Origin: Physcia stellaris
Lineage: Eukaryota > Ascomycota > Lecanoromycetes > Caliciales > Physciaceae
DNA: 64,000 bases
Direction: 5' to 3'
Assembly (NCBI GenBank): GCA_018902385.1
Contig: JABSSW010000016.1
Coordinates: forward strand, 434,001 to 498,000
In this document: positions 7,701 through 31,997 of the stretch, in pieces
Position numbering within the stretch: the stretch's first letter is position 1
Layout of the letters: the number at the start of each line of letters is the position of its first letter
The notes under the pieces: model-generated
Databases searched by the model: none
What the model was told of the DNA's origin: nothing
What the model saw: only the letters and a program-made list of their open reading frames with translations
Made by a program: the position numbers and the translations under genes

Positions 7701-8437
7701 ATATGATATTGTGAGGGTCTTGTCCTGGTCAGGGAGTGTTGCTGTTATTGTCTTGTCCTTGTCAGGTACCGATGTGGTACCATTTGTCTTTTCCGATTCA
7801 CTGGGGATCAAGGACGTTGCCGACTTCGAGTGGAGCGAGATTGGAACAGAGACTACCGAGACGGTCTTATTGACTTGGACAGTAACCACAACGGAGGAGT
7901 CTTTGTCTTTGCCAGTTGTAGGAGATGAAAAGGTGCTCAAGCCGGGGCTCTTGGATGTGGGCAGAGTTGACGTTTTGTCCTTGTCCGGTATGGTTGTGGT
8001 CGATGATCGAGATGTAGAAAAGCTATCTTTGTCTCGGAAGGTCAATGTAGTCGTGAGCTTGTCCTTGTCCTTGTCCTTGTCAGATGCCAAAGATGAGATG
8101 GACGACGGTAGCTTGTCGGATGATTGAAGACTGCCAAAGGTGCTTGCAATGATTCTCGAGGTAGCCGTCAGGTTGAGAGAGATCTTGTCTTTGTCGTCTA
8201 GGATACAGAAAGTCAGCTGAATGATCTGGAGGAACTACTCAAGCTTGAGATGAGTCGATAGAATGCGGGAAACTCACCATCGAATGTCCGACGCCTCGGA
8301 TGGTTATCTGCATTCCGTCAGCTTTGAAGAGTCGGGCTGTAATGAGGATATTGGAAATCAGTACCTCTAGGGCCACCGAGTACGAGTACTACCGAGGTAG
8401 CCAATGCTACAGCGAGCAGAGCCTTGGAAGCGTGCAT
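4754..8437 (-). CDS. Ser/Thr-rich GPI-anchored, repeat-bearing cell-surface protein
   Basis: Predicted secreted wall or adhesin-like protein, family not recognised. Four exons (8437-8365, 8336-8278, 8216-5226, 5128-4754) keep phase and give 1165 residues. Residues 1-22 form a signal peptide (MHASKALLAVALATSVVLVL). A Ser/Thr-rich stretch follows with many short Asp-Lys-Asp/Lys motifs. Then come about ten copies of a roughly 34-residue repeat with a VV(I/V)xTTTNxAGSxxTTSST-like core in the C-terminal half of exon 3. The last exon ends in a hydrophobic tail (FWIAGLAGFVTLLFFL) after small residues, as expected for a GPI-attachment signal. Start chosen because it alone supplies the signal peptide. 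The high Ser/Thr content implies heavy O-mannosylation. Function is inferred only from architecture. Confidence 0.85.
5284..6470 (-). repeat. Tandem ~34-codon repeat array inside the surface protein
   Basis: About ten imperfect tandem units of roughly 100 nt encode a beta-strand-like core (hydrophobic run, TTTN, AGS, TTSST) separated by Pro/Ser/Ala spacers. The seven units nearest the C terminus are the most regular. Such arrays usually change copy number between isolates. Confidence 0.8.
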
Positions 8438-9843: not shown

Positions 9844-12827
9844 AATGATCGCAAATGTGCACTTGCACTATTAGTGCACAATGTGCACTAGTGAAGTTCT
9901 TGCAAATTATGCAGTGCAGTTTTCGAAAATTATGCACATGTGCAGTGCAGTTTTGAAATGAATTGCACTAATGCAAATATGTAATTACAGAAAATATTGA
10001 AAAATACGTCGAGAAAAGTATTTTATCGAGATTTGTTAATGATGTTGAGTTTTTGTCATTCAATTGAATTTTGATTTTCGTTAAAAACACGTCATGTGAT
10101 AGTAATTTGAGTTTAAAATCGAATTAATGCGTGAAATCGAACAAAATTCGCAATGTCGAAATCATTCATTTTCGCAAAAATTAAAAATTTTTTACAATTT
10201 GTATTTGTTTTATTCATCAATTTCAATGCGACGTCATTATGAGTTCGAATTTTGATCAACAAGTTGCATCGAACAGTATTACGATTTATTTTCGCAAAAT
10301 TTCAAATGTTTTCGATAATTTTGTTGATAAACACACGCGTGAAACTCAAAATAAAAAATCAATTGAATTTGAATACGTTTTTCGTCAAAAAATTTCGATT
10401 CAACTCAAATTCAATCAAAATTTTGTATCGCAAATTTTTAAAGCAAAACGTCAAAAAATTATCAATATTCAGATATTTCGTGCGTCAAATTTGAGCGATT
10501 TTGATTCATGAAGCGATTTTGACGTGAAAAATTCAAAAACAAAAATCGAATTTGTTTCAGAAATTTCAATCATTACAAAATTTTTTCAGAAATTCAATAT
10601 AATAATCTTTCGATTTTTTTTTATTGCAACAAACAACAAACGTTTTACAACAAAAATTCACAATTACATTCACATCATCAATGATTTTATTACAAACGCG
10701 AAATTTCATAAATGCAATTTTTGTTTTCGAATTTACAAATGAAATTCAAAACATCGATTTACGATTAATCATTTGAAAAAAAATCATGAAATAATCATTG
10801 CGAGCAAGATTGAAAAGAAAAATCAACTTTATGCGATCAACATCGAGACAGCATTCAGTCGTCAATTCGAATTAAACGAACAACGAAAAAATCGTCAATT
10901 ACAAAAATTTCAAATTCATTTTATTGACAAGAAAATATTTGAATATTTGTACATTCGATGAATCATTGTCGCAAACATCATTTTCGATCAAATCGTCAAC
11001 GAGAATTTTCGTTTTTTTATACATTATTTCAATGCTTCGATCAACGCTATGCTTTTTTATATTGATAATATTATCAAAACACGAGTATTTGAATTTTTCA
11101 AAAAAGATCAGATTCGAATACGTCATGTGTTTCGAAATTTCGTGTCAGATATTCACATATCGTGCGATGTTTGAATTTTTTCGAATCATTTAAACATGTT
11201 GATCGTTGTTGTTCATTTTATCATCGAAAATATGCAGCAACAAATCTTATTTTTCTCGTTGAAAAAAATCAAGAAGCAATATTCTGATGAGAATATGAAT
11301 CACATCGTGTTTTAAACACTCGACGAATACGAAATACGAAACAATTTGAATTATTTCGTAAAAAATAATTTGAACTCGAATGATATCATGTTCAAGCATA
11401 TATTCGATACATTTCGAAAACAACACGACATTGATTACGATTTCGTTGAACATCGTTTACGATGTTTGAATCACATAATCAATTTGACAATGCAAATTTA
11501 TTTATTTGAAAAGCATTTTGTCGTGAAATATCGCATTGTTGTTAATATATTCGTTGTTAAAGAATTGAACGATAATTTGCAAAAATATCGAAAATTTGAT
11601 TTTCAGAACAAATTTCACAATATCAATACGTACATTCTATATTTTTCGCAGCGCGTACAACGATTTTTAAAGCTTGAAAAGAATTTTGATAATGTAATGT
11701 TCAAACGAAATCAGTTTACAAAATGAAATTCATGATACGATATGATTGATTGAACATTCAAGAAAATAAAATCGATTATCAACGCTTTCGTCAACGAGAA
11801 GTTCGATTTGAAGAGCGATAAATTATTGATTTTTGATTGAAAAATTTTTACACAAATGCGTGATTTTTTGAAAAATTGTCACGATGCTACGAACTTTATC
11901 GAAAGTCGTGAAATCACGATCAACAAAATGTTTTTTATGTTGAATTTTTTGATGCATAAGTTCGAAATCGAAAATCGAAATCATCAATTCGATTTTTTTA
12001 TTGATTTATTTATCGAATCAAATTTCAAAAAGTTGCGCAAATATTGAAATATCATTATCGATCGAAATTTTATTTATATCGTCGTCATTATATTGAATTT
12101 TCGACATAAATGAAATTATTTTCAACATTGAGATTTCGACGTGATTCGTGAAATCAAGTTTTCGTTGAATAAATTTTGAGTTAAATACAACAATGCATCA
12201 ACAACGATTCAACATATTGCAATTTTTGAATTCAACGAAAAAGCAAAAATGTTTGAGTTCATGCAATGAATGATTAGATATCAAGAAAAAACAATTGAAA
12301 TGAACGAATTGAATCAATATTTAATAAAATTCAGAATACGCGATTCAAAAAATATCATCGTTTATTGAAAAAGTCAAAACGAACGATTTTTTAGATTTAC
12401 ACGTATGATCATGAACGTATTTTCGATTTTTAATATGTTCGCAAAATTCGAACGTGTGTTTTCAAAAATCAAACATACGATCATCGATGAAAAAATTAAA
12501 TTCAAATTTCGATTTATCGAGATTTTGAAGTGCTGTAAATTTTGATTTCGAGCAGAAATTTTCATCGAGAATTCAATTAACGCAATCATGACGAAAAAAT
12601 TCGAAAAGCAATTGTTGAAACAAATAAAAACGACGAAGACGACGAAGAAAAAAAAAAGCTATTAAAATGCATGCATATCAAACAAAACATCAAGAAAATT
12701 ATACATTTTATCGATGTGCATTAGTGCAATGCAGTTTTTAGATAAACATTAATAGTTTTCTACAAAAATGATTTAATGCAATGCAATTTTGAATCAAAAA
12801 TTGCATTAATGCACATTTGCGAACATT
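9844..12827 (+). mobile_element. Degenerate hAT-superfamily DNA transposon
   Basis: Element of 2984 bp bounded by 18-bp terminal inverted repeats (9844-9861 and 12810-12827, one mismatch; both contain CGCAAATGTGCA), with subterminal copies of TGCAGTGCAGTTTT and TGCATTAATGCA-like motifs. Plus-strand frames carry hAT landmarks. A BED-type zinc finger (CNFC...HLKKNH) lies near 10700-10790. The central transposase segment (HRLRCLNHIINL, then FHNINTYILY) lies at 11440-11640. The C-terminal dimerisation region, in sense as FSIFNMFAKFERVFSKIKHT, lies at 12400-12550. The coding sequence is broken by several stops and frame changes, so no active transposase is expected. No 8-bp target duplication is evident, perhaps erased by mutation. 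Family known from motifs; activity inferred absent. Confidence 0.8.
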
Positions 12828-13021
12828 AATTGAAATCGACGAACAGTTAGAATCGAAACGATGAATAGATTGTTTGTAGAAAAAACTCATTCGTTATCAC
12901 TCAATGTTTGTTCGATAATCGATGTTGACTTCGATATAACGTTTAGTTCACGAATTGCATTTGATGACATGATTTTCTGTTTGATTGTACAACATTATGT
13001 CTTGTTATATGTTATGTTACA
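12828..13021. other. Mutated host flank left of the outer copia element
   Basis: Short AT-rich stretch between the hAT end and the copia target duplication. It was host or older repeat DNA before the insertion and now carries the same CpY-type mutation. It may be what preceded the transcription-factor fragment found at 31623, but no frame can be shown. Confidence 0.4.
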
Positions 13022-13026
13022 CAATA
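13022..13026. repeat. Target-site duplication CAATA, left of outer copia
   Basis: Identical to the pentamer at 31623-31627 after the right LTR; marks the insertion of the outer copia element. Confidence 0.85.
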
Positions 13027-13260
13027 TGTTAGAAAAATTAGAACACATCGATTCAGACATTGAATTGATTGACTAATTAACAAATATTTACGTGAAAGCA
13101 TTGAATATTAATACATGCGACATATGCGATATATGCGATATGCGTTATTGATGATTGAATTTTGAATCAAATGATTGAATTTTGAATGATTTGATCATTT
13201 GAATTCTGAATAACACGTGATTAAAATTTTGAAAAATTTTGAATATTGCACATTTCAACA
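13027..13260 (-). repeat. Left (3') LTR of outer copia element
   Basis: 234-bp copy, fully mutated; pairs with 31389-31622. TG...CA ends are kept. Confidence 0.9.
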
Positions 13261-13434
13261 TTTTGATTCAATAAAACAAAATCATCAAACATTTATTCGC
13301 AACAACATTTGATAAAATCATTGTTTTGAAATCGTTTTGATTCAATTAATTTTTTCGTTAACGAATTCAAACATGTTCACAAAACGTCGAAATAATGTAA
13401 ATGTAAAAAATTTGATGAAATCGTCGATCATTAT

Positions 13435-13627
13435 TGAACGAATGTGAATGATTGTCATTGCATTGCATGCAATATTATCGAAATTACGTACAGAAGTAAA
13501 TACAATTTGATTGCGCAAATGTTTTTAATAGTAATCGATTTTGACACGCTTCGCTTAATCGATCAATCAGAAATTCTGATTTTATTCGTGTTCATATTTC
13601 AATTTTTTGTCATCGTACTTTTCAACA
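13435..13627 (-). repeat. Left (3') LTR of nested copia element
   Basis: 193 bp, pairs with 19134-19326 at about 94% identity by eye. Nearly all differences are of the CpT/ApG type. Confidence 0.88.
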
Positions 13628-13774
13628 CTTTCATTCGATGACAATCATGTTCATTGCACTCGTGAATGCGATTCTCATTGAATTTCAATTTTTGCATTGA
13701 TTGTGACTTTCATTGAATGCTAATTCGTGCAACGACGTAACTTTCATTGAGCTTCAATTTCTACGTTCATTGAT

Positions 13775-14160
13775 GAAGAAAACACTGAATTTCTTTGATC
13801 AAAAAATCGAATTCGAACGATTTCGAAGAAAATCATTTTGAATCATCATGCAATTCGAATCTGAGCACGATCAACGAATTTTTGTTTTCAATCATAATTT
13901 GTCAAATTCGTACAATCGAATCATCATTGCTTTAAAATGAAAAAAATGACGTGATTTTCATCAAATTCGAACTTCTTTAACTATTGACGAAAAAAACACT
14001 GATTTTTTCTGACTAAACAACTAGACTCGAACGATTTCAAAAAAAATCATTTTGAATCATCATGCAATTCAAATTTGAACACGATCAACGAATTTTTGTT
14101 TTCGATCATGACTCGTCAAATGTGTACGATTGAATCATCAACATCTTAACATGAAAAAAG
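13775..14160. repeat. Two-copy direct repeat in the 3' noncoding part of nested copia
   Basis: A segment of roughly 170 bp at about 13775-13945 recurs at about 13985-14160. Both copies include CATTTTGAATCATCATGCAA and the AACACGATCAACGAATTTTT stretch or a close variant. It lies between the 3' LTR and the RNase H region and was duplicated before or during mutation. Confidence 0.75.
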
Positions 14161-17100
14161 CAATTCTGATTATTGAAAAGAATTTAATTGATTTTCGATT
14201 TTTTCAGTCTCAATTGTTTCACGAACTTCTTGAATTTATTTTTTGACAGTGATTTAGTCAAATTATCGACTATCATGTTTGCACTTGAAACGTAATTCAA
14301 TTGAATCAAATTTTTTTGATGCAAATTTCTGATGTTATGATAAATCACATCAATGTGCTTTGATCGTTCGTGAATATGTACGTCTTTGATCAACAAATTA
14401 ACGATTTGATTATTTTTCAAGAATTGCATTGATGAACAAATTTCATGTTTATCGTTCTGAATGATTGCTATTTGATTCAATTCGATTTCGAAATATTTGA
14501 TGAAATTCAAATCTCGAAAAAATTGTGTTATTCATAATTTTTTTTTAACACATGTCGATAAAATCATATACTCGACTTCAATGATTGAAATAACGATCGA
14601 TTTTTGCTTACGATTCATTCATGATATTGATTTTTCAGCGAACATGTAAACGTATTCAAAAATCGACTTTTTGTTCAATTTATCGATTGCGTAATCAGAA
14701 TTCGAATAAGTTTTGATTTTGAAATTTTCATTGTTGTTCAATTTCAAATCGTATACAAGATTTAAATCGATGATCGATCGAATGTAACGAAGCAAAATCT
14801 TCATTGTTTTGTCATGATGTTTCGCAAAATCACTGAAATATTGATTTAATCGTTTTAATGCGAAAGCGATATTTGAACGAATGTGTATGACAACATACAT
14901 GAGCTTTTCAATCTTGTGTTGATAGTTTTTTGAATCAATTCGTTCGTCGTTCGATTCAATTGATTTGAGTGAATCGTAATCGTTCATGAATAGTTTCGTA
15001 CGTTCGTGTTTATCGATGTTCATATGCAATTCATTCAATATTTCGCTCAAATAATGAGTTTGATTCAATCGAATAATTCGTCTTTTACGATCGCGAATGA
15101 TTTTAATGTCAAGAATTTTCTGCATTTTTTTCAGATTTTTGATTTTGAATATTTTCTTGAATTCATTTTTGAATCAATTGATTTGCTCGTTGAATTTGAC
15201 GACAACAAAAATGTCATTCACGTAAAAAAGTAATATGATTTTTCGTTTTTTATGACGAAACATACATGAGTCAATCGAAATTTGTTCGAAATTCAGTTTG
15301 TGAAATTCTTTTACGCAACGCTCGTGTCAATTTCTAATTGTTTGTTTCAATTCATAAAAATTTCGACGAATCAAAAGTGTTTGTTCGAAAAATAAATTCA
15401 CGTCGAATGACGATTTCATGTAAATTATCTTTTTTAGAAATGATTTCGTGAAAACATTGTTGACGTTCATTTGATGACATTCGAGATTTTTCAACGCGAC
15501 GATGACGAGAAACAAGCGAAAAATATCGAATTTAACAATTGAAACAAAAATATCTGTATAGTTTATCTCATATATTTGCGAGAAGTCTTTTGCAACGAGT
15601 TTGATTTTCAATTTGTTCAACGTATCATTCACATGCATTTTGATTTTGAATACTCATTTATTGATGACGATATTGACGTTCTTCGATGAAATGACGACGT
15701 TTCAAATTTCATTAGCTATTAACGTCGTCAATTCGATTTGAATAATCTCGAATCAAAATTTACTTCAAGTGAAATCATTGACAATTTTCTGATAGTTTTC
15801 GAACACAAATATGATCAACTTTTCAACGAATTGTCGATTTGTATTTTTTGTTGTTGCGAACAGAGTTCACTCATCGTGCTCGCACGTATCAAAATTCTCG
15901 ATCAGGAATGTCATCATGACGCGTGCAATTTTGTTGCGATACTCATTTCGCTTTTTCTCGTTCGTAATATTTCGCTTACGTTTAGAAATTGTCACGTGAA
16001 AAAATTGTTGCATCATGCGTGAAGATTTCGTGAAAAATGCTAATTTAACACGCGTTTGAATTGTTGATTTCGTCGTAAACTCGTTGATTTCATTTTTTTC
16101 ATTTGATGTATCGATGAATTCATCGTTTTTTTTCATGTGCATTGACTGAATTTTTTTTTCGTTTTTCGAAATCATAAACGCAACAATGATCGAGAATTTC
16201 GCAAAAACTGATGCAACAAAAATTGATGTAAACGTCGATGTCATCGAAACGACTGCAAATGCAAAAACTATTTTGCGTAATCTTTCGACAAATCGTTTTT
16301 CAAGTAATTCGTTCATCGTAATCGTGAACAAATTCAATGACTCGTTTTTTCATTTTTCATGTTCAAGAAACATTATTTTATGATGCTTGATGACATCACG
16401 ACGATCGAAAGCTCATATCTTGTATTGAATCGTGATGTTTTCGTCATAACTCATAAACACATTTGATTTTTCTGTATTGACGAATTTGTTCTTTCTACTT
16501 TTCTCAAACAATGATTTAATATCGACGAACGAATAGCATTTGCATTCTCAAACGCGTATGTGATTTATCGACGACTTAATATTTGTTCAAATTTCAATAA
16601 AATTTGTTGAATTGTCGTCGATTATTGATTTCGTGTTCATACGATTGCGAACGTATGTATTTGTTTTTTCTGTTTCAAATCAGAATTCTATGAACAACTT
16701 TGCGTCTTGAATCATTGTTCGTATTTGATTTTCGAACGTTTTTATGACACGCTTCATTACGTCGTTTTGAATGAAATTGTACGAAACGATGTATTGTGAA
16801 ACAATGTCGATAGATTCGCATCAAGAATCGAATATAAACTTTAATTCTTTGACGTTGTCACAACGTACGACTTGTAGTTTTCGCTGAGTTTCTAATTTCA
16901 TTTTCAACTTTCATTTGTTAAAAGCTTCTGATGCATCAAATCGTTTGCGAAGAAATAGAATTCATGTTCGTCGAAAATGATTATTCACGATTTTCAAAAA
17001 GTATTCGTAGTCGAGTCTTGAAACGAATAAAAATTCACAAATATCGATAAATATCAATTTCAATATGTGAGTTTTGCGTTCGACTAGACGACGATTATGT

Positions 17101-17275
17101 GCATTAATCATTTTCGTAATCGCACATATTTTGCATGAATCGTTGCGATTTTCAACAATAAATATTGACTTGCGTAAAGTTGTGATCTTGTGCAAACTTC
17201 GAAGTTTTGCAAATTTCATATGATCAGAACGTCGATGTCATAACTCGTATAAATCACGTCTCTTTTGATCGACAT

Positions 17276-17371
17276 TTGAGTCAATACTTGAGTCAACATT
17301 TGAATCAATATTTGAGTCAACATTTGAATCAATATTTGAATCAACATTTGAATCAATACTTGAATCAACAT
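17276..17371. repeat. 12-bp minisatellite in nested copia
   Basis: Eight tandem units of TTGARTCAAYAY, i.e. a multiple of three, so the array lies in frame with the element's former gag/protease region. Unit differences are again mostly A/G and C/T. Confidence 0.85.
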
Positions 17372-19133
17372 TCGATGATTGAAAATCGATTTCGATATCA
17401 CTTCGAAAATCAGTATTTGCATCGAACAAAATTTCGTTCGAGTTCACGATTGTTGACATTGCAAATGAAACAAACAAGATTTTAAAAAATTCAATTGCAA
17501 ACATCGTATTGCTCGTTAACAATGCGTATTTTCTAAATTTTGATGTGATTTTGTCTATTATGTAAACATTTTCTTGAACGAATGCTCGAAATACTTTAAC
17601 GTTTTGCTTATTGCGCATGAACAAACTATCGTCATTGAAATTTTTTATCAAATTCTTTTTGATAAAGTGTTTGTCGAATAAAAAATTGACGTCGAAATCA
17701 AATACATAAAGCATTTTCGTTAACGTGTTTTCATCATTTTTGACACGCATCGTCACTGAATCACATTGATTTGAATACAATTTTTTTTTTTCGATTTTGA
17801 TCGTGCGTCTTTTAATCGATTTGAGAAATTCATTAAAAAGTCGAAAATCGTCAATCATGTGTGACGAGACATCGATATTTGCAATTCATACAAATTTGAA
17901 AAATTTATTGATCAGTTCTTTGAATAAAGCGACGATTTTTTTCATGTGTTTTTCATTGTTTGAATCGATGTCGATGTCGAAACTTGAATTGTTGTTGAAC
18001 GAAAAAAAATCGACGACGTTGTACGTTTTGTGTTTTTTATTTTTGCGTAAAAGTTTTTTGATTTTCTGTTTTTTCGTTCATTTTTTTAATTTTTTCAAAA
18101 AATCACATTTTGCGATTCGATGTGAATCATCGCAAAAAAAACATTTCGTTTTTTTCGCTTTAGTTTTGAAACGACGAAAACTTTCGTCGAAATTGAAAAA
18201 TCGTCGTTGAGATATGCGATAAAATTGACGACGATTGTTTTTGATTATCAATGTTGATTCGACGATTTTGTTTGCAATGAATTGTGTTTTTTTCTTTTGC
18301 AATTTCTGAATAAATTTATCGACATCGAAATTGTTTTGTGCGTCGATTGCATCACGAATGACATCGTATTCGACAAACAAAAATGTTAAAAATGTCTGAA
18401 AACGACGTTTTGATTTGAACAAATTCGTCATGTCTGATTGCATGTTTGCAACTTTGCGACTTTTTTTGATGATATCGATATAAACGATTTCAATGATCAC
18501 GTTTGAAAATTTTTTGTAATTCATGAACTTTTGCAACAATTGTCGTTCAATTGTAGCAAACTTTTGTTTGTATTTGTTGACAAAAATTTTTCAAATTTTT
18601 TTGACAATTTTCAATTTCGTCATCAATTTTTGATCATCGTCATCGATACATTCGATGAATTGATATTGTGTTTTTGCGTCGAACTTTTTTTTAATTTTTT
18701 TTTCATCAAAATTCAAATCGACATTTCATTTTGATTTTCGAAAATCATTCGACAACAATTTCGACACATAATTTGAGTCGACGATCATTCAAATTTTTTC
18801 GTCGATGAATCATTGTTTCATTAATTTGAATCATTTTTCGCAATTTTGACGAATGAAAATATCGCAAATTCGACGCGCGTTGAATTTGTTGATTTCGAAA
18901 TCGTTCATGATGCGTGATGTGATATGTAAATATGTATTCGAATGTAAATTCTCTTTATTGTCGTGTGTTTTCTCGTGAAATTGTCGATCGAATCGTGTAA
19001 ATTCTTTTTATTGCTTTAACGCGATCGAACGATGAGTTCTTTTCACAATTGTTTGATTTTCGTAATTTCGTGATCGAACGATTGACGTTGACAATCACAA
19101 AAAATTTATGTTAATTCGAATCTTATAATTTAT

Positions 19134-19326
19134 TGAACGAATATGAGTGACTGTCATTGCATTGCATGCAATACTATCGAAATTACGTACAGAAATAAGT
19201 ACAATTTGATTGCGCAAATGTTTTTAATAGTGATCGATTTTGACACGCTTCGCTTAGTCGATCAATCAGAAATTCTGATTTTATTCGTGCTCATATTTCA
19301 GTTTTTTGTCATCGTATTTTTCAACA
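19134..19326 (-). repeat. Right (5') LTR of nested copia element
   Basis: 193 bp, same ends as the left copy; followed directly by ATCAT. Confidence 0.88.
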
Positions 19327-19836
19327 ATCATCATGTTTTTGATATTGATGTAAATCAATTTAATGATTTTTTCGATTATCAATTTTTTGATTTTGTGATA
19401 TTTGATTGCGATATGTTTGATTTTTTGATGATTGACGAAATTGTAAATCAATGCGATGACGATTTGATTGTTTATTCGTAAATCGATGAAATTTTCAATA
19501 AAATATTTCAATGCATCGAGTACGACGATCAAAAAATAAATTTTTTTGTTCGCATTGCATTGATCAATATATTCGATTTCGATCGTTGAAATGACAACGA
19601 TATTTTGTCGTTTGAAAAAATGAAACACGAAATTATTTCAAAACATAAATACATAATCAAAAATAAAACGAAAAATATTTTCGCATTTTGCATATGATGC
19701 ATTTGTATAATTCATCAATTTTTCGTTGTGATTCGTTTTTGATTCAAATCGTAAATTCAAATTCGAAATGTTCGATAAATATCAAACGATATACATGACA
19801 ACATGTATATGAATTGATATTGAATTACAAACGTAT

Positions 19837-20053
19837 TGTGACGAACGTACATCGAATTCAACATTTGACAAAATTAACATCGATTTAACATCGTTATTTT
19901 ATCATATCGAATGTTAGAATCGAAGTTCGCTTTGACGCATTCAAAAAATCAAATCTTTTACATATGTTTTTGCAAATTTCATGTATTTGCTTCTCATTTC
20001 GATATTCTCGTGTAATTATGTAGTAATATCATATTTTTGCATAGCATTTCACA
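19837..20053 (+). repeat. 5' LTR of gypsy element
   Basis: 217 bp, starts TGTGACGA and ends TTTCACA; preceded by CGTAT. Confidence 0.9.
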
Positions 20054-23000
20054 TTATATCGAAATCATTTTCTTCATGTTCGTTTATGATACGCGAGCAT
20101 TCAAATAAACAAAGTTTTCTGTCTCAAAATTCAAAAATTGATAAAAAAACATAATAGATTCGTATCGTTTGATCATTCAAAAAAAACAACAAAACGTAAC
20201 AGACTGATTGTGAATGCGAAAAAACGAAACATAATAAACTCGTTTGTCGATTCAATTGAATATTTTGACAGACGAATTTCAGCGATAATCGATGTCACGA
20301 AAATAATTTTCTCGAGCGTCGATTCAGATTCGCTTCACTATTAATTGACAAAGCTTCTTTGTTTCAAAAATGATTCGATTACATCATCAAACACATATTA
20401 AGTCACTTCGAAAAAGTGACATTCATACAAAGAAACATCAAAAAGTTAATCAAAAATTTCATTTTCAATGATACTCAATTTTTTATCATTTCGAACGACA
20501 TTACATTCAATCGACTATTTAAGTTTTTATACTTCGAATTTTTTTTTTTTTTTTTTTTTCAATTCAATCATTATGATTTTCTCAACGCGTCTGAAAGAAC
20601 GTCAACGACTCAACGAAATAAAAAAGTTGAATATTTTCGATTTTAATCAAAAAATCGATGATTCTGAACGTTTTTTCGATATCTATATGATCACAACAGT
20701 GCTCGATTTTACGAGATCGAATTTCATCATGATTTTGACGTCAATTGACATATTCAATCTTTCGAAATTAAAAAGAGCGATTTTTGAACAATTTGCACGA
20801 CTTTGAAAAACTCTGAAATCTTTTCGAAAAAATAAAAACAAAAACATCAATATCATTCGTGTCTGAAACAATCGCGAGAAATACATAAAAACGAGAAATT
20901 TAAAGCATTTTTTAGAGTTCGATGAAATCAACGTTCAATTCGAAACAAATCGAATTGAAATTCGCAAATTTCGTAAAAAAATCGACAAACAATTCGTCGT
21001 TCATAGTAATCGAGAAATCAAACGTAAAGAAAAAACTAAAAAAGAATTTTCGAATGATCAAAATGTCGATGTTTTCTCAAAAATCAACTATGACGAGAAA
21101 ATTGATCTTTTCAAAACTCGCTCAAAAAGCAAGAAATTGATTTTTAAATACATCGATTTTTCTATCTTTTATGAACACAAAAATTCAAACATTCTCGATT
21201 ACATTCGATATAATATCTGAAAAAATAAATGCGTAAATAAATTGAAAATCAATGCGAATTGATATTTCATTAAACAACAAAAAGTTATTGCAATCGTTCA
21301 ATGATTAGAAAACAAAATCGTCGAGCACGTTCACATTCGACGTAAAATTTAACGTCATTTTTTTCGATTACGAAAATTTTTTCAAATTGCTCGATATCAT
21401 TTACGTCGATGCAAATCATGATCGCAATATTCGACGTCAATACGACGATTTCAAAATGAAATTTTCGAATGTATACAGCGAATTTTATTCAGAATTTCTA
21501 TTATTGACTAATCAGTTACTCAACAAGTTTGATGACGACAAAATTCATGATTTGAAAAAAAAATTTATCGTTAAATTCAAATTGACTATGAATAATCTGA
21601 ATAGTTTCATTTTTTTTGATGTTTTTTATCGAAAGATTCAGACAATCGATAATCGTCATCGACGTATTCAAAATGATGACGATAATTTTTTCAAATTTTT
21701 GAATCATAAACAGACATTTCGAATTCGTCGAAACGAAAAGTATTTTGCGAAGTTGATCATCAATTACATCAATTCAATCGAGAAGAAAGTTTACAAAGTT
21801 GTCATAATTCGTTTTTCTGTGAAAAAGAATTGTCGTCGTTGTGATAGTTTAAAACATTGATGAAAAAAATGCAAATCAAACAAATCGTTATTCGAATGAA
21901 TAAACAATTTGATTAAAAAAAAATATTCAATTTTCAGAATATTGCAGCAATTTTCGATTATGTTAACAATACATTCATTGTTTTTTCATTTTTCGATGAA
22001 TCGAAAAACTAATTATCTTTTTCGAAAACGCGAAAAAGATTATCAAAATTTGTTTACGAGATTTTCAACATAACATTTTTAACGAATTTCTTTGTAAATT
22101 TTTAGTTAAAAAGATAAATCTGTTTTTTGACAATCGAAAAATCATGATTCATGATTTAATTGATATCGATTTTTCTGAATATGCTTTCATTAATGAGAAA
22201 ACTGCGCAAAAAATTTGTCATAAATTAGAATTAATTTCAATATCTCTATCGAAACTCAAAAGAATTCTTAATTTCGAAAAAACAAAGATCAAATTTATTA
22301 TTCATCAAATATTGTTCAAAATGACGATATAAAATCATTCAGAACTTTTCGCTTCTTTGTTTATTATCAAAATAAAACAACATTCGTTGATTTTAGATAA
22401 ATCATGAATGAACAAACATGAAATGATTTTCAACATGATCAATGACGAATGTTATTTCACATCAAATCATTGTGATTATGACGAAACATTTTTTTTATCG
22501 TTTCGATCGTCGATATTTCAAAAATTATTCAATTCAAACAAGCAATCGAATAGAACATTTTATTTATCGTTTTTTGAGCGATTTTTCACGTCGTCTTTTT
22601 TTACGAACGTTCAAAAATATCAAATATTTCAAAGACGATCAGTTTCGATCTCATTTCGATCGATTTTTTTTCGATTTATCGTTGAAAATTGAATCGAGAA
22701 AAAATCGTCGTTACGAAAGTTTTTGAGTTTCGATTTCAAATATGTCATCGAGAAAATAAACAAAAACTATTTTTCGAGTAAATTTTTCAAAAAGAAACAA
22801 AAAATGAAAACAATACGTGAAACACAAAAATCGAGTTTAATCAACGTTTCGATCAAAAGATTCGATTTATTCAAAAAATTTACGCGACGTTTTAATCGAA
22901 AATCTAAAATTACGATTTTCGAGCATGAAAACGACGAGCAAAATTTCGATTTTGACGTATCATTAAATGTCGTTTTTGTTGACGCGATTGCTTTTCAATC

Positions 23001-26000
23001 GTTAACGAAATTCAAAAGAAAAAGAAAAAGTCAAAACATTTTTTTTGATTTTGAAAAAATTAAACGAAATTATTGACAACGTCAAAAAAAATTTAGTCAA
23101 AATAGAAATTGATTTCGATTTGAATTTCAAAAAAAATTTTAAAATCATGAAAGCAATCGTCGAGAAATTGAAACGTAAAATTTTTGAATTTTTTAAATGA
23201 TTCGAAAACGTATTCAACTCGAAAAAAATCGACAAATTATTTTCGCATAGATTTTACGATCACAAAATCGAATTGACGAAGAATTCGAATCAATTGTCTC
23301 GAAATCGAGTCTATTTTCTATCGTCTAAAAAGTTCGAGATTTTTCAAAAATATTTACACGATAATTTTCAAAAAAAATTTATCAATTCAAGCAAAACGTT
23401 TTATGTTTCGTTCATTTTATTCGTCGTCAAATCGAACGAGCAATTTCGTTTGTGTGTCGATTATCGAAAGCTGAACGTCATAATTAAACGTAATAATTAT
23501 TTTATTTTGTTAATCGAAAAAATTTTTGCAAAAATTATCGATTGTAAGTTTTTGTTCAAATTGAATATTATATTTGTTTTCAACAAATTTCGAATGAATT
23601 TTCAAAACGAAAATTTCATTATTTTCATATGCTCGCTAAACATCTACAAGTATCATGTATTTTTTTTTGAATTAATCAATGACTCGATCAATTGACAACA
23701 TTACATGAACGATTTGTTGTTCGAATACATCAATCATTTTTGTCAAATGTATTTGAATGATATTTTCATTTACAACAAAATTCGAAAGCAACACGAGCGA
23801 CATTTCACTCAAATATTTCAAAAATTAAAAAAAGTCGAATTTCAAATCGATATCAAAAAATGCGAGTTTTTTCAAACAGAAATTTTTTTTTTCGACGTCA
23901 TATTATCAACAAAAAATTTGCGCATGAACTCAAAAAAAATACAAAATATTGTCAATTGAATTCGTTTCATTTACATCAAAAAAATGCAAATTTTTGTAAA
24001 TTTTTGCAATTTTTATCGACGTTTCATCAAAGCATTTTCGAAACTCGTCAAATTTTTAATTCGAATAATCAAAAAGAAAGTTGATTTCGAGTGAATCGAT
24101 TTGATCAATGAAACGTTCGAAATTTTGAAAAAACAAATAATCGAAATTTCAATTTTTCGACATTACGATCGCAATCGTAAAACAATTTTGAAAATCGATT
24201 TTTCGAATTGATGTTTAGATGAAGTTTTATTTCAATACGACGACGACGAAATTTTTCATTCGATAATTTTTTTTAACAAAAAAATGATTTTTGTCGAATG
24301 CAATTACGAAATATATAACAAAAAACTTCTAATCATTATTCGATGTTTAAAACATTGAAAATTCGAATTCGAAAATATCGACGAGTTCGTCGAAATCTAC
24401 ATCGATCACAAAAATTTGAAAATTTTTATGATAAACAAAAAATTCATTTCTCGTCAAATACGTTGAATCGAGATTTTGACTGATTACAACATCAAAATTC
24501 AATATCAATTCGACGTCAAAAACGTTAAAATTGATATTTTGACTCGAATGTTTGAATTTCGTTCAGCGAAAAACGACGAGAAAAAATTCTATAAAAAACA
24601 AATTTTGCTTTTTTTTTTCGATTTTAATTATATTCAATAAACGCGATGAATGATTTGTACGAACGCGTCATGCAAATCAATCGCGAGAACGAAAATTGTA
24701 TTAATCATCGTCAAATTTTGATCGATGATCAAATCATCAACGAAAAAATAAATTTGCGAAATTGTTCGAATCGAGACGAAATTCTATTTAAAAACGAAAA
24801 TCTATGAATGTCAAATCGATTAAATTTCATGATTGAAATAATTCGTGACGTTCACGAACAGTTTTTTTGTACACATTCGAGCATGAATCGTATTGAGAAA
24901 TTCATTAAACGCTATTATTATTGATTTAGTATAAGACTATTCATCAAACGCTATATTCGAAATTGTCACAAATGTCAGCGATCGAAATTTTCACACGATG
25001 ATCGTCACGAATTGTTAATTTCATTGTCGATTTTTAGTCAACGATGAATTGATATATCGATGAATTTCATAATCGAATTATTTGATTTCAAAAACAACAA
25101 TGTTATTTGTATTATTATCGATCGTTTAATCAAAAAACGTCATTACGTCTTTTGCGTGATCGATGACGATGATTTAACAATGCAAATTTGTGTCAAAATA
25201 TTAATATATTACGTATTTTGTATTTATGAATTACTTTTTTTCATCATTTCAAATCGAGATGATTAGTTCGTAAATCGCGTTTGAAAAGTTTTTTGTAAAC
25301 GATTAAAAATCAAATGTAAATTATTCATCGTTTTTCAATCAAAAATCGATGATTAAATCGAACGAGCGAATCAAAATATCGAGACTCGATTGCGTTTGTA
25401 TTGCAATTATCGTCAAAACGATTGAATTGATTGAATAAATATCATAAAGTTTGTTAACAATAACGATGTTTCAACGATCATCGAGTTCATTTTTTTTTTC
25501 ACTAATAAAAGCTATCATTCTCGAATGATTTTTGAATCGAATTTAAATGATTACGAAATCACTAAAAAACGTTTGCTAATTAAACAAAACGAATTCATTG
25601 TCGAAAAAATGAATCGTATTATCGAATACGTCAAAATCAATATTGTCGACGCGAGACAAAAAATGATTGCTCGAATCAACAAATTTTGTTTGTCTATAAA
25701 TTTTGAAATAGAAAATTATTTTTGACTAAATCGTCGTCATATAAAAACGATTCGTTCATCAGACAAACTCGATGATAAAAAGTTGAATTCATACAAAATA
25801 ATCAAAAAAAAAGATTTCGTCTATAAATTGAAATTGCTCGACGACATGCACATTCATTCAGTTTTTCATTCTTGATTGTTGAAAAAGAATTTTAGAAACT
25901 CGTTGAAAAAACAACATAATGATTTTTCAAAATCAATTATTGCGAGTGAAATGTCTGAGTGAAAATTCGATGATATATTAAAATTTCGATATCATTATTA

Positions 26001-27093
26001 TCGATTACAATATCGTTGCAATTGATTCGAATGAAAATTTCACGATCGAACATGATATTACGTCGACGACGACGAATTTCAAAATGCTCAAAACATCGTG
26101 AATGTTTTTCACGATGCTAATTTAAAAATAGCAAAATTTGCTTTGCGAAATGATTAAATCATGAATTTTATTGTTTATGATCGATCAAAAAATTGTCATC
26201 GAATTCGTTACAATTCATTTTCAAATTGATTTCAATAATTTTTTCTTTTTGTCATTCGTTTCGTTATCATTTCGCGTTGTTTACAGTCAAAATTTACGTC
26301 GCATAAAAAGTTGAATCGTGTCAAAAACATTTTCAGAAATTGTCGTCAAATTTTATTGAACAATGAGTAATAATGTAAAATGTCATGCAATGAAATGAAT
26401 AAACGCAAATTGTCAAAAAATTCGAACATTTACGAATTCGTCAACAAAATTTTCAATTGTTTACTAATGACACGCGAAACTATTTGTAAAATTCGTTCAA
26501 AATATTTGTTTTTCAAAAAATTTAATACAAACATATTTCGCTGAATGCAATGTACGAATCAAACGTCGTATATGCGATAGCATCAACGCGTTAATCGTGA
26601 TGATAAAAATTTTATCGATTTGTTCAAATTGCTCGTTTCGTGATATCAATTTGATGTTGCAAAAATTTTCAAAATCGTTGACGCGCTCAATTGTTTGTTT
26701 ATTAATATTCGTCGAAATTACTTTTGACGAATTGTATGAATTAATCATTTTTCACGATATTCATTACATTCACGTTTTATCGCATGCAATGTACACATCA
26801 ATTTTCACATACGCGAAATTATCAAGATTTTAAACATTGTTACGATGATTTTACTAACATGATCAAATTGCTCATCTCATCGTAAATCGATTTAATGTTT
26901 TCACGATTTTTGACGAATCGATTTCGCGAACGAAATCGATTTCACAACATTTCGAATTTATTTGTTCATTTCATCAATCATTCAATTTAACGTCATTCAA
27001 CAGCGCATTTAGATCGCGCAAATTGCTCATCGTTAAAAACAAAAAAATTCAGTTGATCGTTTCGAGACGAAATTGAAAAAAAACGAAAAATAA

Positions 27094-27310
27094 TGTGACG
27101 AGCGTATATCGAATTCAACATTTGACAAAACTAACATCGATTTAACATCGTTATTTTATCACATCGAATGTTAAAATCGAAATTCGTCTTGACGCATTCA
27201 AGAAATCAAATTTTCTACATATGTTTTTGCAAATTTCATGTATTTGCTTTTCACTTCGATATTTTCGTGTAATTATGTAGTAATATCATATTTCTGCATA
27301 ACATCTCACA
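27094..27310 (+). repeat. 3' LTR of gypsy element
   Basis: 217 bp, starts TGTGACGA and ends TCTCACA; followed by CGTAT, the same pentamer that precedes the 5' LTR. Confidence 0.9.
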
Positions 27311-30300
27311 CGTATTTCGAAAATTTGTTGATCGCGACGACGATATTTGAACGAATTATTCAAATGAATCATTGATCAAACTCAATAATTTTGCGAAAAA
27401 AATGTTTTTCGTTTTTCGATGTTTGATACATTTCATCGTTATGAATATTCGTTTTGAATGAATACGATTTCATTGAAATTGACGTTGATTTGCAATTTTT
27501 AAAATCACAATTTTTAACAAATTGTTTGATAAACGCTTTTTGCGTGAATCATATGATTCGATTTTTGCGATTTTTGATGATTTTGATTTCAAAATAGAAA
27601 TGTATTTTATCGAAATTTTTGATACGAAAACGTTTGTTCAAATCGATTTTGATTTGATCGATATTATTGATAATAAAATTGATTAATAAAAAATCGTCAA
27701 CGTAAATTGACAATATGATGTCAATAAAATGTACGAAAACGCAATTATTCACAAACAAACAAATATAATTCAACGAAATGAAATATTTTTTCAAACAATC
27801 ATATCATTCGCGAAAAAATTGTTTCAATTTATACAAAAATTTTTTCAACGAACAAACGAATTTCGATTTTGTTTTTTCGAAATCAGACGATTGTTGTATT
27901 CATTATTTCATTTTGAAATTTAATTCAAAAAACGCGATGACGACGTCAACGTGATGCATTTTTCAATTGTTTTTCGTGATTAATGCAAATATACATTTTC
28001 AAATCATTGATTTAACGATTTCTGAATAATTTTCGAAATAATTTTTGTCAATTATTTGCAAAAAATTTTTCGTCATTTATCGTATTTTGTATTTGACGAT
28101 TTCATCGCTAAAATCACGTTTGATTGAAAATATTTAGCGATTTTTAATGACGTTGATTTTTGAAAACGACATTAACAATTTTCAAATGTCATTATGTTTG
28201 TGATGTTCGAATTTTTCTTTTGCGATTTGAATTCATCGTTTTTTATCAAAATGAAATTGAATTTTTGTCAATTACGCGATATATTGTATTTCATATCGAT
28301 GATTCGCGATTGTTTGATTTGTTTCGCAATTTTGACATTTTCGTATTGTGTTTCGAAATCAACAATTTCGTCATCGTCGTGATTTTTGTTTCAAAAATTT
28401 TGTTGATGAACGTAATTGCGTTCAAATTGCTTTTGCGTGCGAATGAATTTACGAAATTCTGATAATTCGATTGTAATAATTGATTCAATTGATGAAATTG
28501 TTTCAATAAATGCAATTGATAAATCATGATGATCGTCGAAATTATCAAAATTATGTTTTTCAATATTTAATTTTGCAAAATTCGAATTCAAATCGTTCGA
28601 ATTTGCAATATTTGCAATCGTACATTGATTATTTAAAAAAATTTGATTTGTTTGATCAATCAAAAAATTGAAATCAAAAATACTGTAATTTTCATTTTTT
28701 TTTCGATTTCAGATTTGATATATTCGTCAAACATTACATGAACGATTTTAATGATTTGACGTTTGTTAAATTTTCAAATACGATATTGATTCGAAATTTC
28801 GTAATTTAATAAATATTTTTTGATTTTTTGTTCGTCAAGTTTTTTGATGTGTTTCATTTTCGAAAAACACAACGTTTCGAATGAATGTAAATTGAATAAA
28901 TCGAATTTTCGCTCATTTCAAATTTCATGCGATATCATATTATTCGAGAAAATAAAATTGATGTTTTTCAAATAAATCATTGTGTGAACGATTTTTTTTC
29001 AAAACGTTTTGAATAATTTCGAGTCGTACAGAATGAAACGTATTTTATTGAAAATAATACGAAACGTTCGTTCAAACATTTTATTCTGATATGAATTATC
29101 AGAAACAATGAATTTTTATTGAATTTCGTGTTCGATCATGAGTTTTTCGATTTTTTTGTTGATATTTTCTTTGACGTTGTTCATGCGAAAAAATTCGATT
29201 GTTAATTTTTGAATTTCGAACATTTGAATAAAATTCTTGAAAACGATAACGAAATCGAATTTATTTTTGATCAAATACAATCAAATGTAATCAATGTAAT
29301 CGTTCACGAATACAATTGCGTAACGTTTATCGCGAAAAATTCGAACAATATGATTTTTTTCAATCAAATTCGTATGAAATTTTTGTTTTTTTCGTGTAAC
29401 ACGTTTAATTGAATTCGTTTTCATTGTTTTGTGATTTGATGTTCGATGCATTTTGTTCATAATACATAATTCGCATTTATCGTGTTGTGAATCGATTTTT
29501 TCGAATTTGAAACATTCGAAATCGTCGATGAAATTCATTGTTGCAAATTTTTTGATATCGCGTAAATTGAAATGTTTAAATCGACGATGTCATTGATTTC
29601 AAAAAATAAAAATTTTCGCAAATCGTGTTTGAATGACAAATTTTCACATATCGAAAATATATGAGTTTTTTTTTTTTTTTGACGCGTATCGATCATGAAA
29701 ATTTTATCGTCGTTTTCGTCAATGATTTTGAAACGATTTTTTTGACAACGATTTCGCATGACTTTTTCTCGAAAATATCAATGAATATGAAATTGTATTT
29801 GAAATCAAAAACGTATTCAACGTCGATAATAATGTTGCAAATTCGTTTGTCGTCGATATTGAATTCGAAAATAATAAATTCGATTTTTTTGATTGTTAAC
29901 AATGCGTTGTTAACAATTTCAACGATTTTGATCGTTGCGAAATCTTTCAACTCGTGAAACAATTTTTTGTTGTAACACAGATGATTGTTCGTTTCGTTGT
30001 CAAAAAAAAATTCGAATTTTTGAATGAAATTGTCGATTTTGCGATGCGTATTGCACAATTGATTTGAAAAATAAAATTATTGAATCGAATACGTCTGATT
30101 TTGCTTATTGCAAAATGACGAAATGATGTAACTGAAAACGTATTATTTTCGAAATTTGAAAAAATTGAATTTTCGATTGAAAAGTTTGATTTGAAAATCG
30201 AAACAATTGAATCAAATTTGACTCGTTTGATTTTATCGTTTTTTTTGATTTTGTCAATTTTGTTGATTGATACGAAATTGATTTTGTTTGATCAATTCAC

Positions 30301-31388
30301 GATCAAATGCATTTTGATTTCGTAAAATTTTCAATCAAAAATGCGTTAAAATTTGTTATGATAAAAACAATATAATTTGTCATAAATAAAAAATTCACAC
30401 ATTTCGCATGAATTAATATCACGATTTTTTTTGTTTTTATTTTTATTTTTATTTTCATCGTTTTTCGAAAATTTGTTTCGATTGTTTTTGATTGTTCGAA
30501 TTGAATTTCGATTTTTTTCATGTAAATATTTCGTTTGTTTTAATCGATTAACGTTTTGATCATTTCATCGATAATCAATATTTTTTCACGTAATTTGATT
30601 TCGTGAATAAAATGAAACATGTACGAATTCAAATTTTTAATTAAATTCATACGAAAACGATTGTTCATGAATCAAACAAAAAGATTTTCGTCGATCGCAT
30701 TAATTTCATTTTTTCACTTTTTCAAATGTTTTGTTCAATCGTTAACGTTTTTGAAATCGACGAACGATTTGTTGCAAATTTTTTTTACAACGAAATCGAT
30801 AATAATCAAATCGATCGTTTCGTAAAAATTCTTGAATTTCAAAAAAATTTTCGTGTCGTTTTTCATGTTTTTGACGTGTGAGCGAAATTTCTGTTTAAAC
30901 GAGATATGCATTGTTGCACAAATTTTGCTATAAACAATAATTCATTTTTTGTAATTTTTTTTGTATTGTTTGTGTTTTGCGTCGTAAATAATTTGTTCAA
31001 TTTTGATTATAACACGTTCGATGTCGTTCTTTTTGCGTAAATTTGATTTCGCAAATGAAAATGATTTTTTTTCTATTTCAAAAATGTAAAATCAGAATTG
31101 AAAAAATACGAAACAGAATTTCAATTTCTCGATTCACAAAATGAAATTGTCGACTCTTTTCAGTTTCGTAATTTTGTATATTTCAGAGTTTTTTTTCATG
31201 ATGTTATAAAAAGATTTCTGAATGAATTGAAAAATTAAAAAATGTTTTGTTGTTGAGTTTGTGTGATTGCGTTGTTGAAATTTTTCGATTGCATTTTATT
31301 GAAACAATATATGTAAAATCGATGATTTATTCAATAAATCGTGATTTTCAAATTATTAAAAACGAAAACACGATTCGAACTCATAATC

Positions 31389-31622
31389 TGTTAAAAAGAT
31401 TAAAACACATCGATTCAAACATTGAATTGATTGATTAATTAACAAATATTTACGTGAAAACATTGAGTACTAATACATGCGACATATGCGATATATGCGA
31501 TATGCGTTATTGATGGTTGAACTCTGAACCAGGTGATTGGACCCTGAATGGTCTGACCACCTGGACCCTGAATAACACGTGACTAGGACCCTGAAAGGCC
31601 CTGGATATTGCACACTCCAACA
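31389..31622 (-). repeat. Right (5') LTR of outer copia, partly spared from mutation
   Basis: 234 bp. The first ~125 bp are mutated like the partner LTR. From about 31515 to 31622 the copy keeps CCC, GG and CT (for example GGACCCTGAATGGTCTGACC), so it records the pre-mutation sequence. Followed by CAATA, the left-flank duplication. Confidence 0.9.
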
Positions 31623-31997
31623 CAATATCATGCCGAACTCTTGTCTGCTGCGGTTGTGGACATTGTAAATTCATTGGACTTGCTGCAAAACGCTGCGGCT
31701 CTTTGTGAAAAGTATGCGGCCAATCGCAAGAATACAAGAAAAGTGCGGAGGCTGATTGAAGCTACAACGCTCAAGCTCAGCACTCAGGCGGATGGAAGCG
31801 TACCCACTAACCATCATTCTTTATTCGATGGCCCAGCTGGGTTATATGACGCGCACCCTCAGTCAACACCATATGCGCTGGACCAGAACCCCTGGCTGCA
31901 GATCGAGAGTATATCAAACGTGCCGGAAGACCCAGAATGGGCTTACCTGGGGCAATTCCTCAACCTACCCAACGAAGACATTATGGTCGCTTCTTAA
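31623..31997 (+). pseudogene. 3' fragment of a probable fungal transcription-factor gene
   Basis: An open frame of about 125 codons begins at the copia target duplication and ends at a stop at 31997. It contains TQYHAELLSAAVVDIVNSLD, a basic NRKNTRKVRRLIEAT segment and a C-terminal EWAYLGQFLNLPNED. This resembles the variable C-terminal tail of fungal Zn2Cys6 regulators, where short helices end in an aromatic/acidic tail, but no domain can be proven. An upstream part is missing: the LTR lies directly before it and the sequence on the far side of the element (12828-13021) is too mutated to read. Most likely the gene was split by the insertion. Composition here is normal, unlike the DNA immediately to the left. 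Confidence 0.45.

Follow-up and report, generated by a model that had tools for sequence, protein, structure and literature searches.

What process can remove nearly every CC and GG dinucleotide from a nest of transposable elements and leave most CpA and CpG sites in place? This question is raised by positions 9930-31514 of a 64,000-nucleotide stretch of DNA (hereafter the window, C16:434001-498000, i.e. on contig C16) of Physcia stellaris, a lichen-forming Lecanoromycete of the Caliciales, family Physciaceae. Repeat-induced point mutation (RIP) in the wide sense takes place after fertilisation and before meiosis and requires RID. It is highly probable that the block was produced by RIP in which the order of targets is inverted (CpC > CpT >> CpA > CpG), the homologous copies presumably being acted on in the sexual cycle by a RID-class enzyme. 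The assembly analysed (43.97 Mb, 147 contigs) is somewhat smaller than that of the P. stellaris genome paper (46.57 Mb, 184 scaffolds, 43.32% G+C; PMC7513301; the literature is cited here from excerpts of the papers unless stated otherwise). For the Vps41 gene in the window, the best match to a named organism is from Dirinaria (78%).

The block has a GC content of about 27% and holds one CC or GG dinucleotide, where about 814 are predicted by base composition. The original prediction that no CC or GG was left was right as to near-completeness, but one GG remains, at 15905. CpA/TpG is retained, and the observed/expected (o/e) ratio of CpG is about 2.5-3.6. The two longest CC/GG-free runs in the window, 15.6 and 6.1 kb, correspond to the block and its left edge, and the third longest is 186 bp. 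In 2-kb windows outside 10001-32000 the CC or GG o/e ratio is 0.72-1.25, i.e. the bias is confined to the block. The left limit of mutation lies at about 9900-10000, and the right limit is sharp, between 31514 and 31515, inside a long terminal repeat (LTR). Three nested LTR elements, each bordered by a matching pair of target-site duplications (TSDs), and a mutated segment at the left make up the block. Its features are as follows (CpY, CpC or CpT; strand given where one was assigned):

9930-31514, hypermutated AT-rich block, GC about 0.27, CC and GG essentially absent
9930-13021, mutated segment left of the outer copia element, no family assigned, sequence read by eye
13022-13026 (left) and 31623-31627 (right), TSD CAATA of the outer copia element
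13027-31622, outer copia, whole element
13027-13260, outer copia left LTR, 234 bp, mutated throughout, 53/60 CpY sites (row L072)
31389-31622, outer copia right LTR, holding the boundary: mutated over its first 126 bp and unmutated over the remaining 108 bp (31515-31622)
13432-19326, nested copia, whole element, TSD ATCAT at 13427-13431 and 19327-19331
13432-13627, nested copia left LTR, 196 bp
19131-19326, nested copia right LTR
15021-15713 (C16:449021-449713), minus strand, relic of RVT_2 (copia reverse transcriptase), in the nested copia by position, four in-frame TGA
19837-27310, third LTR element, a candidate gypsy according to the original prediction, TSD CGTAT at 19832-19836 and 27311-27315
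19837-20053, left copy of the third LTR pair, 217 bp
27094-27310, right copy of the third LTR pair
27471-28166 (C16:461471-462166), minus strand, RVT_2 relic, in the outer copia by position, five TGA and three TAA

Similar TGCACTAATGCA-like motifs at about 9870-9990 and 12712-12830 flank the left segment (9870-13021), a candidate DNA transposon the outermost tens of bases of which also appear unmutated. Two tandem copies of 214 bp, 78% identical, lie at 13731-14158, inside the nested copia and adjoining its LTR.

The half-mutated right LTR of the outer copia provides a natural experiment. When its unmutated end (31515-31622) was compared with its partner (13153-13260), CC was found changed at 20/20 sites, CT at 12/13, CA at 0/21 and CG at 0/2, giving 32/33 for CpC/CpT vs 0/23 for CpA/CpG (Fisher p = 7.6e-15), with zero other differences. 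The figure of about 32 of about 33 CpY pairs proposed earlier was thus exact, and the absence of change at CpA and CpG, claimed for about 21 pairs, held on recounting. The other two pairs had been said to be dominated by CpT-type changes. For the third pair the count agreed (17 differences, 15 CT-type and 2 CA-type), and for the nested copia we counted 11 differences, 9 CT-type and 2 CA-type, in place of about 10 of 12. Transversions were absent from both. The zero transversions in LTR pairs, the one-directional changes, the target-site duplications and the recurrence of the same signature in 64 sources all speak against an artefact of sequencing, assembly or inherited composition, for which no supporting point was found and the chance of which we regard as negligible.

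To examine the rule across the genome, reverse transcriptase (RT) profile searches were carried out, which gave at least 137 RVT_2 and at least 150 RVT_1 matches, scoring having been capped at 150 candidates. Three retroelement families, each with a little-mutated reference, entered a context table with 3, 12 and 5 mutated copies. The 30 PF07727 loci supplied 15 mutated copies and two references (L005 and L006, the latter itself partly mutated), and 13 were left out for want of a suitable reference or because they were little mutated; among the 30 PF00078 loci, family assignment covers L035-L046, of which L041-L045 were used with L035 as reference; L047-L064 lie beyond the range of this assignment. 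Wherever transversions exceeded 3% in a 61-base window, its columns were removed, and the unfiltered table shows the same order of contexts. Over the 20 copies, C-to-T change affected CC at 5510/5660 sites (97.4%) and CT at 5633/6709 (84.0%). CpA, the main target of canonical RIP, was changed at only 582/7734 (7.5%), and CpG, the main target in a decay of CpG methylation of the Masc2/Dnmt1-like kind, at 217/6495 (3.3%). The claim that CpA and CpG are spared is hence correct in that both are strongly disfavoured, but they are mutated, at a fraction 11 to 29 times lower. The order CC > CT >> CA was seen in 20/20 copies, and CA exceeded CG in 19/20 (the exception being L010, 5.0 vs 5.4%). Little-mutated and heavily mutated copies agree at nearly all purine/pyrimidine positions, so that the differences are almost only transitions, with reverse transitions at about 0.4-2.2% per copy. 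These C:G to T:A transitions, on both strands and in repeats, are those of RIP in the wide sense, and being permanent they differ from methylation induced premeiotically (MIP), in which methylation occurs without mutation. As a control, unmutated copies were compared with each other (L008/L009/L020 and L036/L037); their C/T differences amounted to 3-9% per context, with at most an approximately twofold lean to CpC/CpT. Lacking the CpY rule, they indicate that normal mutation is not its source.

The least loaded copy, L012, has the cleanest pattern (CC 94.5%, CT 60.6%, CA 1.4%, CG 0/342). Mutations per site, computed for seven copies, range in L012 from 2.9 at CC and 0.93 at CT to 0.014 at CA, and in L034 from 5.4 and 3.4 to 0.23; since the loads at CC, CT and CA increase together, they fit one activity with a graded preference. 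The CA/CT ratio climbs with load from 0.015 to 0.068 in these seven copies, and a second, weaker activity may operate alongside the graded one. An identical final table is predicted if all repeat cytosines are deaminated or methylated unselectively and mismatch repair then restores T:G mismatches at TpA and TpG while leaving those at TpC and TpT uncorrected. However, such a filter must be nearly complete in two contexts and almost nil in the other two, and it leaves the grading of CC over CT in L012 in need of a separate account; we consider it very unlikely.

Within each 3' class the 5' neighbour had a small effect in the 20 copies, and a rule based on 5' context was rejected. This bears on editing of element DNA or cDNA by a cytosine deaminase of the APOBEC/AID type. 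Such enzymes cause C-to-T/G-to-A hypermutation of retroelements, a pattern resembling the present one, and they select their sites by the 5' neighbour, a choice not evident here. Furthermore, heavy mutation of both strands and its taper at the ends of the inserted element (see below) are not obviously expected of editing before integration. The genome has eight matches to the cytidine deaminase fold (PF00383), at most hypothetical DNA editors; a PF08210 search gave no match, its controls being likewise silent. Editing by such a deaminase is most improbable. The best PF00383 (cytidine/deoxycytidylate deaminase) match, C64:178666-179121, spans four TGA codons and is either an intron-bearing gene or a mutated relic.

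Whether the mutation is directed by repeats was assessed at the LTR edges of the outer copia family, for which 16 matches were obtained, 12 aligned and 11 counted (L078 was left out; L076, L077, L079 and L080 are partial). In right LTRs, 68/74 CpY sites were mutated in the first 40 bp vs 22/77 in the last 34, and left LTRs gave the mirror image, with 11/44 at the outer edge vs 40/43 at the inner edge. Mutation thus fills the element and tapers across its outer 100-150 bp. This mirrored taper indicates that mutation follows the repeat, as expected of guidance by shared homology, and, together with the boundary at 31514/31515, it limits mutation to the duplicated extent, the stretch at about 12830-13021 apart. 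The designation 'RIP-like' given to the block earlier is upheld, as mutation tracks element boundaries. The flanks were different for 6 among 7 right LTRs and for 4 among 4 left LTRs, which indicates mostly separate insertions; copying of one mutated ancestor everywhere was rejected on account of these flanks and the differing mutation loads, one flank being shared by two copies.

The taper and the sharp boundary also bear on ordinary deamination of 5-methylcytosine in methylated heterochromatin, proceeding slowly through DIM-2-like non-CpG methylation and without a repeat-directed burst. A DIM-2-like gene is encoded in the genome, and Neurospora DIM-2 contributes to RIP of old heterochromatic repeats too (PMC11969663). 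Nevertheless, both edge features point to homology direction, and with CC near saturation, CpG at 3% and so few reverse transitions the process must be strongly context-bound; slow decay of this kind is very unlikely.

The coding damage was evaluated in RT frames. Sixty loci were examined, L047 was skipped, and the 48 with GC < 0.40 were counted on the strand with the fewest stops, giving 151 TGA, 15 TAA and 2 TAG (n = 168). When eight unmutated RT frames were mutated in silico, CpY changes produced TGA only (1-5 per frame), whereas CpA changes produced TAA/TAG only (6-15 per frame), as did CpG changes; the excess of TGA in degraded frames agrees with the CpY rule, since CpY mutation alone yields TGA. 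Such mutation strips nearly all Pro, Gly and Trp codons while creating few stops. In 9930-31514, stop-to-stop frames of up to 215 codons persist, which could be mistaken for genes.

A survey of 304 one-kb windows from the sampled loci and the window (partly overlapping, hence not independent) showed GC < 35% in 190, from 64 sources of which the window is one. Of these, 176 were of CpY type (CC/GG o/e < 0.3 and CA/TG > 1.0), 0 were CpA-depleted and 14 were mixed (CA o/e 0.87-1.42). A mosaic of CpA-type and CpY-type blocks was rejected, as CpA o/e was below 0.8 in 0/190. Loci selected by RT are biased to copies that still resemble reverse transcriptase, whereas ten 1.5-kb stretches at arbitrary round-number positions are free of that bias but few. 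Three of the ten were AT-rich, all with CC 0.00, CT 0.01-0.11, CA 1.22-1.25 and CG 3.8-4.4, which suggests, very roughly, that mutation has reached some 30% of the genome, a share consistent with the overall G+C. In the samples taken outside AT-rich blocks, dinucleotide composition was normal; no equal bias in nonrepeat DNA was seen, and a regional base-composition bias was rejected, the flanks of the block being normal. Nor was CpA the main changed dinucleotide in any sampled repeat copy or AT-rich window. The order CpC, CpT, far above CpA, as first proposed from the window, is therefore borne out by the 20 copies of three families, the stop-codon spectra, the AT-rich windows and the position-chosen stretches. 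Canonical RIP leaves a high TpA/ApT and a low (CpA+TpG)/(ApC+GpT); in the block these are 0.41 and 1.47, with a composite index of -1.07, and 0/42 windows fall within the RIPper limits (taken from PMC7882544).

The candidate enzymes, RID/Masc1-like and DIM-2 genes having been named at the outset, were sought with the PF00145 profile. Two RID-class genes and one DIM-2-like gene were found, on contigs C5 (RID_C5), C6 (RID_C6) and C3, and this search revealed no further DNA methyltransferase gene. The C3 protein has a methylase domain and DUF7893 in Pfam, and we take it to be DIM-2-like on three grounds: size, distance from the RID rows and the architecture we associate with DIM-2. Both class I (RID) genes are apparently intact, their predicted models keeping motifs that we presume to be PCQ and GNAVPP. 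RID_C5, which matches a P. stellaris protein at 100% identity across the 303 residues searched, lies inside the main RID clade, adjoining Teloschistales. RID_C6 (L001, C6:790057-794028; 513 residues once two predicted introns are removed) falls outside the 34-row clade containing RID_C5 (support 99) and in an 85-row tree joins Eurotiomycete sequences, DmtA among them (support 96). In that tree 20/85 rows, having no trimming motif, were represented by their last 300 residues, and several RID_C6-like rows are without the C-terminal part. A grouping of RID_C6 with seven Eurotiomycete rows was favoured (log-likelihood 12.2 above the quick tree; p-value of the approximately unbiased test, p-AU, 0.955), and one with the main 34-row RID group was not rejected (p-AU 0.561). 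Monophyly of 32 Lecanoromycete class I sequences, a group defined after a tree had been seen, was rejected (p-AU 0.0019); because Leotiomycete rows nest inside this group, the rejection says nothing on RID_C6 alone. The closest named relative of RID_C6 is from Heterodermia (Physciaceae; 72%), and the nearest named group in the trees is Physciaceae only. Teloschistales have a second, short class I gene as well, on a branch other than that of RID_C6. Judged from sequence, RID_C6 is best but not firmly placed near Eurotiomycete DmtA; it may be an ancient paralogue or an acquisition, possibly by horizontal transfer, and is a natural suspect for the changed target rule. We entertain only tentatively, and as rather doubtful, that RID_C6, whether ancient or acquired, is a CpY-specific RIP enzyme that came to carry out the mutation of repeats and reversed the target rule in a group of lichen fungi.

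From these results, a hypothesis regarding the mechanism may be put forward: homologous copies would be recognised during the sexual cycle and become the substrate of a cytosine methyltransferase of the RID class (Dnmt1 class I), with RID_C5 or the extra RID_C6 of this lineage accepting a 3' pyrimidine instead of A. Repeated cycles would drive mutation to near saturation, and what inactivates transposons would be the disappearance of Pro, Gly and Trp codons and the gain of TGA stops, not the TAA/TAG stops of CpA-type RIP.

Several points weigh against RIP with this inverted order. Sexual-cycle timing, methylation and enzyme identity are parts of the account that we infer, the timing and the link to RID by analogy, and the CpY rule was observed in one species, P. 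stellaris. The mutated stretch at about 12830-13021 is no more than a candidate repeat; the flank shared by L069 and L070 means that one pair may be a later duplication. CpA is not wholly spared: in L045 and L034, the two copies with the highest load, it reaches 14% and 20%. Finally, L008 (C8:902437), L009 (C42:398640) and L020 (C7:889944), and likewise L036 (C5:1166521) and L037 (C12:60312), are multi-copy and have an RT domain without stops and no CpY mutation; identity within these two sets is 95-97%, although mutation has reached saturation in other families. Possible reasons are that RIP is leaky, that it is recently or currently inactive, or that these elements arrived recently.

Compared with known systems, the locus resembles Neurospora crassa RIP (RID/DIM-2) in its repeat-confined C:G to T:A change on both strands, the decisive 3' neighbour, the AT-rich relics and the presence of RID-class and DIM-2-like genes. 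However, the Neurospora order is CpA > CpT > CpG > CpC (PMC5496416), and its least favoured site is the most favoured one in P. stellaris. CpC is also last in Trichoderma reesei (PMC5496416), 240/242 changes are in CpA in Zymoseptoria tritici (PMC10294615), and a kingdom-wide survey concludes that a CpA preference is shared (PMC12543289). In Magnaporthe oryzae and Botrytis cinerea T4, CpT comes first and CpA second (Amselem et al. 2015, PMC4352252); CpT is prominent in P. stellaris too, but second to CpC, which is unlisted in the excerpt on those species, and CpA is nearly inert. In that study, the genomes showing a CpA or a CpT signature have one or two RID/Masc1-like genes (PMC4352252). CpG/CpA RIP in T. 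reesei and Aspergillus nidulans and CpG hypermutation in Microbotryum (PMC5496416, PMC2621366) show that 3' preference can vary among lineages, yet these shifts are toward CpG, the most protected context in P. stellaris. Among lichen-forming fungi, AT-rich mutated transposons and RIP are also known from Endocarpon pusillum (PMC3897900) and Cladonia rangiformis (PMC12542154), the latter reported with RID and DIM-2 homologues. The Endocarpon indices are CpA-type (TA/AT 1.47, substrate index 0.70), in contrast to those of the P. stellaris block, and the excerpts of the Cladonia paper held no dinucleotide rule. In excerpts of the open-licence literature, to which the comparison was confined and which leaves older subscription papers aside, we recognised no CpC-first RIP case; in the main text of the P. 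stellaris genome paper (PMC7513301) the word 'RIP' occurs 0 times.

To the left of the block, a Ser/Thr-rich open frame of 960 residues with degenerate repeats around FTTTNxxGSxxTTSST runs on the minus strand at 5208-8090. It has no Pfam match at 0.001, and its predicted product looks like a surface or cell-wall protein.

The sole proposal we found in these excerpts for how RID chooses its cytosines points to a motif in the protein, correlated with CpT signatures (PMC4352252). In P. stellaris, with CpC about 97% mutated, CpA nearly inert and two RID-class candidates, target recognition by RID becomes testable by gene swap. Screens based on CpA or TpA/ApT call CpY-mutated DNA RIP-negative, and lineages with RIP may therefore be missing from its taxonomic map. 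The consequences for coding sequence also differ from those of CpA-type RIP, as Pro, Gly and Trp codons are lost and fewer stops arise. If the role considered above for RID_C6 were true, an extra RID-class enzyme would have inverted the target rule of RIP across a group of lichen fungi.

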